Shown piece by piece: positions 2,489 through 6,933 of a stretch of 48,614 nt of DNA. This stretch comes from Actinomyces denticolens (lineage in GTDB: Bacteria; Actinomycetota; Actinomycetes; Actinomycetales; Actinomycetaceae), in NCBI RefSeq assembly GCF_002072185.1, contig NZ_MVIW01000024.1, positions 1-48,614 of the forward strand, written 5' to 3'. The position numbers and the translations under genes were made by a program. How positions within the stretch are numbered: position 1 is the first letter of the stretch; each line of letters begins with the position of its first letter. Under the pieces are notes generated by a model. That model saw only the letters and a list, made by a program, of their open reading frames with translations, was not told the origin of the DNA and searched no databases.

Positions 2489-2520
2489 GCTCCGATCTCA
2501 TCCCGGGCGGGGCGGTGAGT

Positions 2521-2542
2521 CATTGGCGCCCGGGCCCCAATG
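2521..2542. promoter_or_regulatory. 22-bp palindrome in a divergent intergenic region, candidate operator
   Basis: CATTGG (2521-2526) and CCAATG (2537-2542) are perfect inverted arms around a GCCCGGGC core (2528-2535). All base pairs of the 22-mer are self-complementary except position 7/16. It lies 33 bp upstream of the ATPase ATG and about 100 bp upstream of the histidine-kinase start. That position suits a binding site for the response regulator encoded at 3922, but the assignment is inference. Confidence 0.45.
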
Positions 2543-2604
2543 CACTGGCGACCCGCCTGCCCCTCGGGGGAGGCAGGTGGATGCCCATGGTGGTGCCAGC
2601 GCCA

Positions 2605-2633
2605 CTGACGACGGCGACCCGCGAGGGTAGCGT
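2605..2633 (+). promoter_or_regulatory. Candidate promoter for the histidine-kinase gene, leaderless
   Basis: CTGACG (2605-2610), 17-bp spacer, TAGCGT (2628-2633), then 7 bp to the ATG at 2641. The predicted transcription start coincides with the start codon, which supports 2641 as the translation start over upstream in-frame ATGs. Confidence 0.5.
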
Positions 2634-2640
2634 CCGGGCC

Positions 2641-3870
2641 ATGATGACGCGCCAGACCTCCTCGCGCCGCTGGCCGGCGGTCGTCCTCTACGAGTTGATC
2701 CACGCCGGGCTATGGCTGCCGCTCTTCATGATCATGGCTCTCGGGTTCCTCCTGGCGCATCTGACGATCCCCGCCCTGGCGCAGGCCGAGCGGTGGGCCG
2801 CCCGGCGTCTCGGCGCCAACGCCCCCTCCGGCCGCCAGGACGGCGAGCCGTTGGCGCGCTGGTACTCCTCACGTGCGGTGACGGCGGCCTTCTGGCGCCA
2901 GGACCTCCCTCTGGCGGTCGCCTCCCTGGTCCTCGGCCTGGCCTCCATGCTCGTGGCGATGACCGGAATCATCATGGCCGCCATCGCGGTCGGCCTGCCG
3001 TGGATCGCCTCCGAGGAGCGCCCGGCGAGGATCGGGATCTGGGAGGCCACCGGGCCGAAGGATGCCTGGTGGGCCACCCCCGCGGTCCTGCTCATGAGCG
3101 TCATCTGCCTGGCGCTCCTGGCGGCCATCGGCCGACTGCGCCTGGTGATCACGCAGGCCCTTGGGCGCGATACCGTTGCCGAGCGCGCCCGCGAGCTGGA
3201 TGCCCGGGTCGGTGATCTCACGCGGGGGAGGGCCAGCCTCGTCGATGCCTTCGAGGCCGAGCGCAGTCGCATCGAGCGCGATCTGCACGACGGCGCTCAG
3301 CAGCACTTGAGCGCCCTGGCCATGACACTCGGATCGGCGCGACTCGCTGCGGCGCGCATGGGCGACCAGGAGCAGCGCGACGCGGTGCTGGCCCACGTGG
3401 ATCGCGCCCAGGAGCAGGCCGAGGCCGCCCTGGTGTCACTGCGCGCCACCGTGCGCGCCGTGCGCCCCGCCGTGCTCACCGATCGAGGGCTGGCGGCGGC
3501 CGTGCGCGAGCTCTGCGCGGGGTCGGGCCTGGAGACGGGCACGTCGATCAGCGGGGACGACTCGGCGATCAGCCCACCGGTGGCCACCGCGGTCTACTTC
3601 GCGATCAGCGAGGCCCTGACGAATGTCTCCCGGCATTCGGGCGCGTCCGCCGCCCGGGTGGCGATGGTCTGCTCGGCCGCGGGGGTGGAGGCCGGCGTGG
3701 AGGACGACGGCGTCGGCGGCGCCCGTATCGAGGAGGCAGGGAGCGGGAGCACGGGTCTGGCGGGTATCGCCCAGCGGATGGCGACCGTCGGCGGCGAGTT
3801 GGCCATCGACTCCCCGCCCGGACGGGGAACGACGATCCGCCTGAGCGCCCCGGCCGCGCCGCCGTGGTGA
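2641..3870 (+). CDS. NarL-family sensor histidine kinase
   Basis: 409 residues. Membrane segments lie at about 24-42, 90-120 (two closely spaced helices) and 145-165, so the sensor part is membrane-embedded with little extracytoplasmic sequence. The HisKA_3-type dimerisation motif ERDLHDGAQQH gives phospho-acceptor His216. The ATPase domain shows the N box around Asn328 (EALTNVSRH), the G1 box VEDDGVGG (353-360) and the G2 box around 372-379. The frame is open further upstream to 2416, but 2641 is preferred because a -10 box lies 7 bp before it. The partner response regulator starts 51 bp downstream. The gene is divergent from the FtsX-type ABC operon, which it probably controls (inference). 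It could sense cell-envelope stress or a peptide; the ligand is unknown. Confidence 0.85.
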   Translation: MMTRQTSSRRWPAVVLYELIHAGLWLPLFMIMALGFLLAHLTIPALAQAERWAARRLGANAPSGRQDGEPLARWYSSRAVTAAFWRQDLPLAVASLVLGLASMLVAMTGIIMAAIAVGLPWIASEERPARIGIWEATGPKDAWWATPAVLLMSVICLALLAAIGRLRLVITQALGRDTVAERARELDARVGDLTRGRASLVDAFEAERSRIERDLHDGAQQHLSALAMTLGSARLAAARMGDQEQRDAVLAHVDRAQEQAEAALVSLRATVRAVRPAVLTDRGLAAAVRELCAGSGLETGTSISGDDSAISPPVATAVYFAISEALTNVSRHSGASAARVAMVCSAAGVEAGVEDDGVGGARIEEAGSGSTGLAGIAQRMATVGGELAIDSPPGRGTTIRLSAPAAPPW

Positions 3871-3921: not shown

Positions 3922-4656
3922 ATGAGGATCGTTCTGGCCGACGACGCCGCCCTGCTGCGCGAGGGCTTGGCCGCGCTCCTTGCCGACGCCGGGCATGAGG
4001 TCGTCGCCCAGGCCGTCGACGCGCCCGGGCTCGTGGATGCCGTGGAGGGGCTGGCCTCGCGCGGTGCTCTGCCCGATGCCGTCATCACCGATGTGCGCAT
4101 GCCCCCGGGCGACGCGGACGACGGCCTCAGGGCCGTCGTCGCCCTGCGCGCCGCCCACCCGGGGCTGCCCGTCGTCGTCCTGTCGGCCTACACGGCCGGT
4201 GACTACGTGCGCGACCTGCTCGCCGAGGAGTCCGGCGGGGTCGGCTACCTCCTCAAGGAGAGGGTGGGGCGCGTCGAGGACTTCATGCGATCCCTCCAGG
4301 TCGTCGTCGGCGGGGGAGTGGTCGTGGATCCCGAGGTTGTGGCGGGCCTCCTGGCCCGCACGACGACGGCCGGCCCGTCCACGCCGTCGCAGATGAGCGC
4401 GATGGATAGCCCGGATGGCGCGGCGGCGCGCCCACAGGGCTCCAGCGCCGTCGAGCGCCTGACCCATCGCGAGCGGGAGGTCCTGGCCCTCATGGCCGAG
4501 GGCCTGTCCAACAGTCAGATCGCCGCTCGACTCGTCGTCTCCGACGGCGCGGTGGCCAAGCACGTGGCGCATATCCTCGCCAAGCTCGATCTGCCCCCCG
4601 AGGAGGAGAACCGGCGAGTGCGCGCCGTCCTCGCCTGGTTGCGGGCCACCGCTTGA
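3922..4656 (+). CDS. NarL/FixJ-family response regulator
   Basis: 244 residues. The receiver domain (1-125) has the acidic pair Asp7-Asp8, phospho-acceptor Asp57 (ITDVRMPP), Ser88 at the switch position and Lys112. The C-terminal LuxR-type helix-turn-helix (about 178-235) contains LTHREREVLALMAEGLSN and the recognition-helix region SDGAVAKHVAHIL. A low-complexity linker of about 50 residues separates the two domains. It follows the histidine kinase by 51 bp and is its cognate partner. Likely targets are its own divergent region, including the palindrome at 2521-2542, and the ABC operon at 294-2488 (inference from context). Confidence 0.88.
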   Translation: MRIVLADDAALLREGLAALLADAGHEVVAQAVDAPGLVDAVEGLASRGALPDAVITDVRMPPGDADDGLRAVVALRAAHPGLPVVVLSAYTAGDYVRDLLAEESGGVGYLLKERVGRVEDFMRSLQVVVGGGVVVDPEVVAGLLARTTTAGPSTPSQMSAMDSPDGAAARPQGSSAVERLTHREREVLALMAEGLSNSQIAARLVVSDGAVAKHVAHILAKLDLPPEEENRRVRAVLAWLRATA

Positions 4657-4739
4657 AAGACGGCCGAGCGGCCGGCTCCGAGGCCCTCAACTCCGCGAGT
4701 GGGAGGCTGCCCCTTCCTGCGCGCGGACCGGGTTCTGCC

Positions 4740-4910
4740 GCACTGTATTCATCGCCGATGTCTTCACCCGCCGGATCGTTGGCTGGGCGTTTCCCGCTAT
4801 CCCCGCGCCCCGGTTGGGGCCGTGGATACAGCTACGACAAAGCGATGACCGAGACGGTCAACGATCTGTGCAAGGCCGAGTCCATCGACGCCGAGCGCGT
4901 ATTCATGTGA
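4740..4910 (+). pseudogene. IS3-family transposase (OrfB) remnant
   Basis: Two transposase motifs remain in different frames. From 4745 the frame reads VFIADVFTRRIVGW, matching the segment around the second catalytic Asp of IS3/IS150 OrfB. From 4824 a different frame reads GYSYDKAMTETVNDLCKAES, matching the GDSYDNALAE(T/S)VNGLYKAE block around the catalytic Glu. Some 50-60 residues normally lie between them, so there is a deletion plus a frameshift. No terminal inverted repeats were recognised. The remnant sits at the left border of the low-GC cassette and marks past mobile-element activity. The rest of 4657-5064 shows no other gene. Confidence 0.75.
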
Positions 4911-4954
4911 GGCGCAGTTCTGTGCGGGCGTCCAAGATGAGTCCAGTCGACCTC

Positions 4955-4984
4955 TTGACATCCTTTGACCAGCAGTATTACGAT
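4955..4984 (+). promoter_or_regulatory. Consensus-like sigma-A promoter for the low-GC cassette
   Basis: TTGACA (4955-4960), 18-bp spacer, TACGAT (4979-4984). The -35 is a perfect consensus, unusual for this window. Predicted start is near 4991, giving a leader of about 74 nt before the ATG at 5065. An alternative -10, TATTAC, lies at 4976 with a 15-bp spacer. Confidence 0.6.
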
Positions 4985-5064
4985 GTTGCCGCTTGGGGAT
5001 CGGATCAAGGGCACTTGATCTTCAAGCCATGTATGCGCGCGCCACTAAGGGAGATGAGTGCATT

Positions 5065-5619
5065 ATGAAAACGACAGTGAAGTCGATCATGCTCGTGATT
5101 GCCGCCACTGTGCTGTGCGCATCGATCGGTGCTCCCGCAGGTGCGGTAGTCCGAGAAAGATATCAGCAGGTTCTTGCGTCTCAGGATCAAGTTGCAGTAG
5201 ATCCTCGGACCGGTGCTCAGCGTTCCGCAGTTCCCGTGCAGGGGCAAGGTCTTAAATTGAATATGGTTGAAGGGGATGAAATCTCAATTGAAGGTGATGC
5301 TGTCACGTGGACCGACTCGGCCGGACTGATTGTAGCGAGGATTGACATAACTTCTCCAGATTCCGGAATGACATTCTACTTCGATGAATCTACTCAGATG
5401 ATTCGAGAAGAGGGCGCATCGTTCGTTTCGCCTGATCTTCCTCAAGGGTACTGCATGCCGAAATGGATTGGTTGGGCTTTCAATATCGCCTGGGGAGGGC
5501 TTGTGTGTCTTCCAGCATCGGCGGGCGCGAGCGGTGTTGCTACTCCGATCGCTGGCGCTGCTACGGCCGCTGCTTGCGAAGCTGCTGGCGGTGCGCTGGT
5601 CACTGCGATTTCCTGCTGA
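5065..5619 (+). CDS. Secreted protein with four-cysteine, Gly/Ala-rich C-terminus (bacteriocin-like precursor, unproven)
   Basis: 184 residues; I do not recognise the family. The N-terminus is a Sec signal peptide: MKTTVKSIM, then a hydrophobic core, with probable cleavage after an Ala near residues 24-27. Residues 28-120 are hydrophilic and beta-rich. From 128 to the end the protein changes character: Gly/Ala/hydrophobic with Cys130, Cys148, Cys171 and Cys184, the last being the final residue. This order of signal, pro-region and Cys-bearing hydrophobic tail recalls halocin-C8-like and other secreted bacteriocin precursors, but no specific match is claimed. Start chosen at 5065 because GGGAG lies at 5049-5053. 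Base composition is near 50% GC in sampled lines, far below its neighbours, and codon use includes many A/T-ending codons. Both point to horizontal transfer. The membrane protein at 5653 follows after 33 bp. Confidence 0.75.
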   Translation: MKTTVKSIMLVIAATVLCASIGAPAGAVVRERYQQVLASQDQVAVDPRTGAQRSAVPVQGQGLKLNMVEGDEISIEGDAVTWTDSAGLIVARIDITSPDSGMTFYFDESTQMIREEGASFVSPDLPQGYCMPKWIGWAFNIAWGGLVCLPASAGASGVATPIAGAATAAACEAAGGALVTAISC

Positions 5620-5652
5620 CGATTGATATTGGCTTCACGGAGGAATGTGTTA

Positions 5653-5919
5653 ATGCGCGTCAGTCGTGGCAATAATTTTCTTATTGTGGCCTGTATTCTT
5701 GGGGTTGCATCGATGTTCAGTCGAGGTATTCCCTGGTGGGCTTGGGGTGCCGCGTTCCTGATTCTAATCCTGGAAGCGGAATTTCTGTCCCGCTCATTGG
5801 CCGGCAAATCGTCTTCCGGTCAGAAGGCCCTTGGCTGGAGATTGATTGCCGTTGCGGCCGTGGCGGCCGTCTTTCTAATGGTGTCGCTATTCTTGCTCGA
5901 CTTCACTGGAATTTTCTGA
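5653..5919 (+). CDS. Small three-helix membrane protein, possible immunity protein
   Basis: 88 residues, no recognised family. Three hydrophobic segments: about 9-22 (FLIVACILGVASMF), 27-43 (starting WWAWGAAFLILIL) and 65-85 (ending VSLFLLDF), with a short Ser/Lys-rich loop around 50-60. The ATG at 5653 has GGAGG at 5639-5643; an in-frame TTG at 5623 lacks a ribosome-binding site. It lies 33 bp after the secreted Cys-tail protein, shares its low GC content and is probably co-transcribed. Size, topology and pairing with a bacteriocin-like precursor suggest immunity or export assistance (inference only). A GC-rich hairpin follows at 5974-6013. Confidence 0.72.
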   Translation: MRVSRGNNFLIVACILGVASMFSRGIPWWAWGAAFLILILEAEFLSRSLAGKSSSGQKALGWRLIAVAAVAAVFLMVSLFLLDFTGIF

Positions 5920-5973
5920 CCTGCGCCATTTTGTCTCTTGTGGTCAGCAGGGGGCCGGCGAAGTCCTGGTGAG

Positions 5974-6013
5974 GTCCGGGCCCGGGCGGGGATCGGAGGG
6001 ACAGGGCCCGGAC
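5974..6013 (+). terminator. Hairpin after the low-GC cassette
   Basis: GTCCGGGCCC (5974-5983) pairs perfectly with GGGCCCGGAC (6004-6013) across a 20-nt loop. No U-tract follows. It lies between the small membrane protein gene and the merR promoter. Confidence 0.45.
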
Positions 6014-6025
6014 TCGGCCGCATCC

Positions 6026-6056
6026 TTGACCCTCACGCGGCGTGAGGCGACAGGCT
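6026..6056 (+). promoter_or_regulatory. MerR-type promoter with operator palindrome
   Basis: TTGACC (6026-6031) and CAGGCT (6051-6056) are separated by 19 bp. The spacer contains the perfect palindrome CCTCACGC-G-GCGTGAGG (6031-6047). An overlong spacer filled by a palindrome is the hallmark of MerR-family promoters. Seven bases separate the -10 from the ATG at 6064, so the autoregulated transcript is probably leaderless. Confidence 0.75.
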
Positions 6057-6063
6057 GCGTCGC

Positions 6064-6933
6064 ATGAGAGATCCTCAGGGCATGAACGACGCGCCCCACC
6101 CCAGCGCCCCGGCACCGGCCCCCGCCGCTGCCGAGGCCCCCGCGCGAGAGAGCGACCGCACGGTCGGCGCCGCCGCGCGGCTGCTGGGCGTGAGCGTGCG
6201 CGCGCTCCACCACTGGGACGCGATCGGCCTGCTCACCCCCTCGGGGCGCAGCTGGTCCGGCTACCGCCTCTACAGCGACGCCGACATCGACCGCGCCCAG
6301 CAGATCCTCGTCTACCGCGAGACCGGTATGAGCCTGTCCGCGATCGGCGAGCTGCTCGACGCCGCCCCGACGACGGCGATCGATCACCTGGTGCAGCAGC
6401 GGCGCCTGTTGACCGAGAGGGTCTCTCGCCTGACGCGGATGGTCCGCGTCATCGACACCATGATGGAGGCGGAGACGATGGGTAATCACATGAGCGGGAC
6501 CGAGCGGGCCGAGGCCTGGGGCGGTCAGTGGACCGAGGCGTACGCCGCTGAGGCCGAGGAGCGCTGGGGCGACACGGACGACTGGGTCGAGTCCCAGCGC
6601 CGCAAGGCCGCCATGACGCCCGAGGACTGGCAGCGGGCGATCAGCGAGACCAAGCAGCTCGAGGACGGCCTCGCCGAGGCCATGCGCCGTGGCGTGGCGC
6701 CGGGCAGCCAGGAGGCCAACGCCCTGGCCGAGCGCCATCGGGCGGACCTGAACCGCTGGTTCGAGGTGAGCGTGCCCAAGCAGGTGCTCATCGCCCGCGG
6801 GTACGTCGCCGATCAGCGCTTCACCGATTACTACGACTCCAGGGAGAAGGGTCTGGCTGCCTGGCTCAAGGAGGTCATCGACGCCTCCGCCCTCGCCCAG
6901 GGGGTGGACCCGGGCTCCGTCACCTGGGAGTGA
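6064..6933 (+). CDS. MerR-family regulator with TipAS-like ligand domain
   Basis: 289 residues. After about 30 disordered Pro/Ala residues, a MerR winged helix spans about 32-100: TVGAAARLLGVSVRALHHWD, then IGLL, then GYRLYSDADIDR. A dimerisation coiled coil follows (about 105-140). The C-terminal part (about 150-285) has the TipAS pattern, with WGG-WTEAYAAEAEERWGDTDDW and WFEVS. TipA of Streptomyces binds thiopeptides covalently through a cysteine. This protein has no cysteine at all, so any ligand must bind non-covalently. Start 6064 is supported by the MerR promoter ending 7 bp upstream; Met at 6082 is an alternative. It stands alone and is likely autoregulated; other targets are unknown. 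Confidence 0.85.
   Translation: MRDPQGMNDAPHPSAPAPAPAAAEAPARESDRTVGAAARLLGVSVRALHHWDAIGLLTPSGRSWSGYRLYSDADIDRAQQILVYRETGMSLSAIGELLDAAPTTAIDHLVQQRRLLTERVSRLTRMVRVIDTMMEAETMGNHMSGTERAEAWGGQWTEAYAAEAEERWGDTDDWVESQRRKAAMTPEDWQRAISETKQLEDGLAEAMRRGVAPGSQEANALAERHRADLNRWFEVSVPKQVLIARGYVADQRFTDYYDSREKGLAAWLKEVIDASALAQGVDPGSVTWE

Follow-up and report, generated by a model that had tools for sequence, protein, structure and literature searches.

SdpC of Bacillus subtilis is an exported precursor whose C-terminal hydrophobic, disulfide-bearing peptide depolarises membranes, and immunity is provided by a separate membrane protein, SdpI. SdpC requires SdpA and SdpB and has one disulfide, and SdpI is larger than the 88-aa protein described below. 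Halocin C8 comes from a long precursor with about ten Cys, and its immunity function is encoded in the same precursor. Immunity to membrane-active bacteriocins can act in the bilayer. Actifensin has six Cys. Actifensins are Actinomyces bacteriocins with disulfides that BAGEL4 missed in the study cited; each is described there as a 37-aa defensin-like peptide with a 32-aa leader and ABC transporter genes directly upstream, and the study gives the impression that characterised Actinomyces bacteriocins are few (PMC6989792). The aureocin A53-like bacteriocins of Actinomycetota are small and leaderless, according to the sections of the source used here (PMC11580447).

The window is a 48,614-nucleotide stretch of Actinomyces denticolens DNA (contig NZ_MVIW01000024.1). 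The initial annotation read a low-GC cassette within it, which encodes a secreted four-Cys protein followed by a small membrane protein, as a bacteriocin with its immunity gene. This reading is supported by the linkage of the pair, the kept Cys, and decay that hits the secreted gene. We consider it likely, judging from sequence, that the cassette is such a two-gene bacteriocin/immunity pair, with killing and immunity as predicted functions.

The family is absent from all four profile libraries searched. The secreted and membrane proteins (11 members, then 7 and 6 further) had nothing above the curated cut-offs in NCBIfam and Pfam, including any match to an enzyme or structural family, a result that would have spoken against a bacteriocin. 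There was no match in PHROGs for 11 secreted members and none in PADLOC for the two window proteins. The best hit against PDB sequences had an E-value of 0.43. The profiles to which the initial annotation pointed (halocin C8-like, circular, and class II bacteriocins) gave no link in the libraries searched. A literature search had partial coverage, and among the matches listed none was recognisable as describing this secreted four-Cys/membrane-protein family. The pair is probably a new family of a known kind, i.e., bacteriocin plus immunity protein, with killing predicted.

Insertion site of the cassette

The features of the inserted segment are listed here.

4657-6029, no strand: inserted segment of 1373 bp, missing at the same place in genome G017
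4657-4910, + strand: decayed IS3-family transposase remnant, from BLASTX pieces in two frames
4955-4984, + strand: promoter-like TTGACA-18-TACGAT, from a consensus scan, by itself no proof of function
5065-5619, + strand: secreted precursor of 184 aa, proposed bacteriocin, from translation, homologues, and Cys pattern
5443-5616, + strand: C-terminal core of the precursor (residues 127-184), proposed mature toxin, from invariant residues and a low-confidence model
5653-5919, + strand: small integral membrane protein of 88 aa, proposed immunity protein, from translation, hydropathy, and position downstream of the secreted gene

The low-GC stretch reported by the initial annotation is confirmed. 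GC content is 52-58% in 500-bp windows between 4751 and 6000 and 65%-80% across the other windows; the gene pair has a GC content of 0.536 versus 0.731 in the flanks. In G017, the response regulator and MerR-TipAS genes found on either side of the window's cassette lie 37 bp apart with no cassette between them (L137). Because these flanking genes are so close together there, the whole low-GC stretch is an insertion. The pentamer CTTGA closes the left flank (4652-4656) and also closes the insert (6025-6029), and by eye the homology between the window and G017 breaks off and restarts at this pentamer. The repeat could stem from a 5-bp target duplication or from microhomology. G044 has the same arrangement as the window, and the secreted gene of the window has a 99% identical counterpart in Actinomyces timonensis DSM 23838. 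There is no cassette match within 1.5 kb of the MerR gene in G009, which has a decayed cassette on a different contig. The MerR-type regulator (6064-6933), with a TipAS antibiotic-recognition domain, adjoins the insert and is part of the ancestral site.

The TTGACA site that had been noticed earlier is present, 81-110 bp upstream of the start codon of the secreted gene. A consensus scan of positions 4600-6100 on both strands found three promoter-like sites versus 0.5 expected. The bordering IS3 transposase remnant is also supported. Two BLASTX pieces (57% over 21 aa, E-value 0.006; 61% over 23 aa, E-value 0.002), each weak singly, are collinear with an IS3-type transposase ORF with rve and HTH_21 domains (L133:6595-7623). 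The best single piece matches L169 (46% over 41 aa, E-value 4e-5). A Pfam search of the remnant pieces found no match.

The secreted precursor and the membrane protein

Translation bears out the secreted protein as first described, with Cys130, Cys148, Cys171, and Cys184, the last of which is the final residue. A further Cys18 is inside the N-terminal hydrophobic stretch. The precursor has an N-terminal signal peptide, recognised by eye, a pro-domain, and a C-terminal four-Cys hydrophobic domain. C130, C148, P150, C171, and C184 are invariant in alignments A1-A3. The core of the window protein has a GRAVY of 0.93 and a net charge of 0. It was modelled, with low confidence, as a two-helix hairpin (residues about 133-154 and 161-182; pLDDT 66), and the model of the full precursor (pLDDT 43) has a predicted beta-rich middle. 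A Foldseek structure search returned nothing significant (best E-value 3.0). By eye, the pro-domain motif GDxI...W...G..VA is common to the window protein and several relatives; other relatives have a short linker with NYPRVS ahead of the first Cys.

The second protein has the 88 residues and membrane character first assigned to it. The three helices proposed earlier are plausible but unproven, as a hydropathy scan has two clear transmembrane (TM) peaks. A match to TgpA_N (PF11992; E-value 6e-4) is below the cut-off and was taken as TM composition.

The cassette could instead be what is left of a mobile element, non-functional and in decay. It adjoins the IS3 remnant, and in sister genome G044 the secreted gene is cut by a premature stop. 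Against this, both window genes are open and the core residues are conserved. In addition, the dN/dS of the secreted gene is 0.15, 0.26, and 0.38 in the three of six pairs for which it could be computed; the other three are saturated, and the value of 0.26 comes with high dS. We regard a non-functional remnant as very unlikely, the least probable of the explanations considered.

Family size and distribution

We found 20 apparently intact secreted homologues, 19 chromosomal and one on the Brevibacterium linens plasmid pLIM, plus one frameshifted copy (G195). The intact set is reduced to 18 when the near-identical pairs G062/G063 and pLIM/G774 are merged. All 21 have the four C-terminal Cys, so that no intact homologue lacks the cysteines, a loss that would have weakened the initial annotation. 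The Cys spacings are 18 or 19, then 13-23, then 13, 17, or 18, with 0-2 residues past the fourth Cys (21/21), and the second Cys falls in a [VI]C-x-P motif in every homologue (21/21). This pattern is partly selected for, because later members were gathered with four-Cys profiles; the first relatives were found by single-sequence search.

The taxonomic family was represented by 213 genomes, of which 20 have a match to the full-length profile A1 and 21 to the core profile A3. With either profile the matches spread over nine of 36 genera, counting that of the window, and some of them are marginal. An order-wide sample has matches in 11 of 396 genomes and adds G774, G855 (two copies), G840, and weak relics; G840 is a weak match (E-value 0.0038) accepted on its anatomy. 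Farther afield, A1 matches two of 394 genomes in a class sample, and the core matches three of 236 in a phylum sample. Both counts include the window's genome, and the other two phylum matches have E-values of 0.003 and 0.008.

The pLIM cassette spans the start of the plasmid record and is absent from the gene table used. A copy 96.6% identical to that of pLIM is on a 3.67-Mb contig of G774. In a plasmid search with eight queries, pLIM was the only plasmid found, matched by three; searches with P0001, L016, L058, L064, and L063 had no match. Among viral contigs, 13 pattern matches were found and none was confirmed, and a phage search with one member had no match. The GC content of the pair is lower than that of its flanks in 18 of 20 cassettes.

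Several weak matches look like other proteins and were dropped (L012, L014, L017, L018, L021, L022, and L024). L050, by eye an ABC substrate-binding protein, was left out of the counts, as were the weak rows L023 and L025-L031, rows without a locus, and the marginal relics L032, L059, L061, L062, L109, L110, and L113. L032 is apparently a frameshifted copy with a neighbour that may also be broken, and it is in neither tally.

Linkage of the two genes and decay of the secreted gene

The initial annotation raised co-occurrence of the two genes in other genomes as a check, and they are together in all 20 intact cases. In each of the 20 tabulated chromosomal cassettes (the 19 intact ones and G195), the secreted gene is followed on its own strand by a hydrophobic ORF of 68-134 aa. 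pLIM has the same gene order with a small hydrophobic ORF downstream, and the pairing extends to 21/21 four-Cys homologues. The genes would be co-transcribed. The intergenic distance in the 20 chromosomal cassettes ranges from an overlap of about 14 bp to a gap of 49 bp (e.g., 33 bp in G156 and -14 bp in G073), with the qualification that the start codon of G774 is uncertain and the tabulated starts of G156, G073, and G092a are a few codons off. The downstream ORF has at least two TM peaks in 18/20 cassettes, and such a follower is found for 2/257 control genes, which are the other genes of 21 neighbourhoods (the window plus 20 fetched stretches) from simple ORF calling. In G073, G052a, G774, and pLIM the membrane ORF beside the intact secreted gene is short or two-helix and may be truncated; that of pLIM has a non-hydrophobic tail. 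A second, similar membrane-like ORF of 80 aa follows the cassette in both pLIM (L053:802-1044) and G774 (L056:1991-2233), and is perhaps a second immunity or accessory gene.

Distances between cores correlate with distances between membrane proteins (Mantel r 0.54, 0/2000 permutations, n = 20). The correlation is r 0.31 without two near-duplicates (4/2000 permutations, n = 18). Shared descent could also explain it, as a Mantel test does not separate this from co-evolution.

The secreted gene is broken and the membrane gene open at seven loci, and the reverse is found at 0/20. These loci, with an eighth that is marginal, are listed below.

G044: secreted gene with a premature stop, membrane gene open
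G028 and G195: secreted gene frameshifted, membrane gene open
G010: internal deletion in the secreted gene, first two Cys gone, membrane gene open
G009 and G091: remnant of the secreted gene, membrane gene open
G092, second copy: secreted gene split between frames, membrane gene open
G018, marginal: 40-aa secreted relic (E-value 0.003), membrane gene open

The two cassettes of G092 are about 2 kb apart (L130, G092:C1:672496-674645), the second being the one with the split secreted gene and open membrane gene. If breaks struck the genes in proportion to length alone, all would fall in the secreted gene with probability 0.06 for seven loci and 0.04 for eight. The asymmetric decay is the pattern expected of a toxin and its immunity gene, and as support for that reading it is suggestive only.

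The membrane profile matches 59 genomes. Nine loci outside known cassettes were read, in addition to a search with L079; L077 (G038) is too partial and is uncounted. Relatives of the membrane gene with no secreted relic found within 1.5 kb are in G033, G051, G052, G053, G054, G080, G083, and G134. G052 has two cassettes elsewhere in addition to its orphan. In three loci of one genus (L076, L078, and L080), an orphan relative is near a gene whose end resembles, by eye, a cell-wall lytic domain. The orphan directly follows that gene in L078 and L080; in L076 two ORFs separate them.

The membrane gene has a dN/dS of 0.20 between G028 and G009, in both of which the secreted gene is dead; some of the history behind this value may be older than the losses. 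For pLIM versus G774, the ratio is 0.60 for the membrane gene and 0.15 for the secreted gene, and these values do not favour the membrane gene as the more constrained partner.

A hydrophobic C-terminus and a membrane neighbour would also suit an envelope or surface protein that has a structural role in its own cell and a membrane protein that anchors or chaperones it. Such a protein would not be expected to have so patchy a distribution (20 and 21 of 213 family genomes match), to be absent at the G017 site, to be carried on a plasmid, or to be repeatedly lost alone while its partner stays. We consider this explanation quite unlikely.

Neighbouring genes

There is no third gene common to most of the 21 neighbourhoods. 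When neighbourhood genes were clustered, the 17-genome cluster was the secreted gene itself. ABC ATPases are in 8/21 neighbourhoods, 0.4-7 kb away, and are of different kinds, sharing no more than about 40% identity except within two close pairs. The initial annotation also asked whether the pair always travels beside mobile elements, and this did not hold. A plasmid carries one copy, and three other cassettes have transposase-like ORFs 0.5, 5.4, and 5.5 kb away. In G195, a tyrosine-recombinase-like ORF, identified by eye, is about 0.5 kb past the membrane gene (L044, reverse-strand coordinates 2490-3191). In G069 (L127) and G193 (L131), which are of different genera, an aspartokinase-like gene, also identified by eye, runs opposite to the secreted gene and lies about 1.4 kb downstream of it; this is perhaps a shared insertion neighbourhood.

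A cluster of NarL-type response regulators is present in 6/21 neighbourhoods. We extended the set to 27 neighbourhoods (the 21 plus G855 twice, G840, G044, and the G018 and G033 orphans) for a profile scan, which placed a NarL-type regulator within 1 kb in seven. The regulators near cassettes are listed here.

Window 3922-4653; L114, L118, L119, L124, L115, L175, and L177: NarL-type regulators, from the profile scan

The seven fall at four apparently different sites: the window and G044 share one, G014, G010, and G018 are similarly placed and may share another, and G052a and G129 are the remaining two. G156 has a NarL-type regulator at 2.3 kb, and the other 19 of the 27 have no regulator match. 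The side and strand of the regulator vary between sites. The genome of the window has 11 GerE-domain matches in 2.83 Mb, from which we estimate that chance would put about 1% of places this near to one. The recurrence was noticed post hoc and may reflect an insertion preference or a regulatory link.

The secreted peptide could instead be a signal (pheromone) and the membrane protein its partner in sensing or export, possibly tied to the neighbouring two-component regulator. The regulators within 1 kb at several sites, compared with about 1% estimated by chance, are in line with such a role. The two-component genes of the window are ancestral, however, as G017 has them without a cassette, and regulators differ in side and orientation and go unmatched in 19 of 27 neighbourhoods. 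No histidine kinase was found near the other sites with one query. Loss of the peptide while the membrane gene is kept would also be odd for a signal pair. A signalling role is unlikely.

Proposed mechanism and comparison with known systems

As a bacteriocin and immunity pair, the cassette may function as follows. The precursor would be exported by Sec and lose its signal peptide. A protease would then remove the pro-domain (about residues 28-127), freeing a hydrophobic C-terminal peptide about 55-58 residues long. The peptide would be held as a helical hairpin by two disulfides, in the simplest case C130-C184 and C148-C171; these pairings are proposed because an antiparallel hairpin would put Cys130 at Cys184 and Cys148 near Cys171. 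The model of a free hydrophobic hairpin suggests membrane insertion, and the peptide is predicted to insert into and permeabilise the membranes of Actinomycetota that are close relatives. In the producer's own membrane, the linked protein would block the peptide. That a small membrane partner gives immunity within the bilayer is suggested by analogy with other membrane-active bacteriocins. If the peptide kills, the cassette amounts to a minimal antimicrobial system of two genes, one of them for immunity, found in several genera and also on pLIM, a long-known cryptic plasmid of Brevibacterium linens.

More tentatively, and with slightly more doubt than confidence, we propose that the family may be a new structural class. 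Its members would be Sec-dependent, two-disulfide hydrophobic hairpins released from a small beta-rich pro-domain, each with a dedicated immunity protein of two to three helices. Insertion and small plasmids would have spread the class among Actinomycetaceae and other Actinomycetales, often placing it next to two-component regulators of the NarL type, and the class would help in the upkeep of the cryptic pLIM.

The cassette resembles SdpC/SdpI in having an exported precursor, a hydrophobic C-terminal peptide, and a membrane partner, a comparison of described features. It differs in its two proposed disulfides versus one in SdpC, and no NCBIfam or Pfam profile links the two systems. Halocin C8 has a similarly long precursor with a Cys-rich hydrophobic peptide at its C-terminus, likewise by described features. 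Here, by contrast, there are four Cys and a separate immunity candidate; there is no profile match between them. As far as the source used for actifensin goes, the cassette shares with it an origin in Actinomyces and disulfides (proposed here), and differs in that its four Cys are part of a 184-aa precursor and its neighbourhoods share no transporter gene. The aureocin A53-like bacteriocins, in the sections of the source used here, are also from Actinomycetota and are leaderless, whereas the cassette encodes a long precursor.
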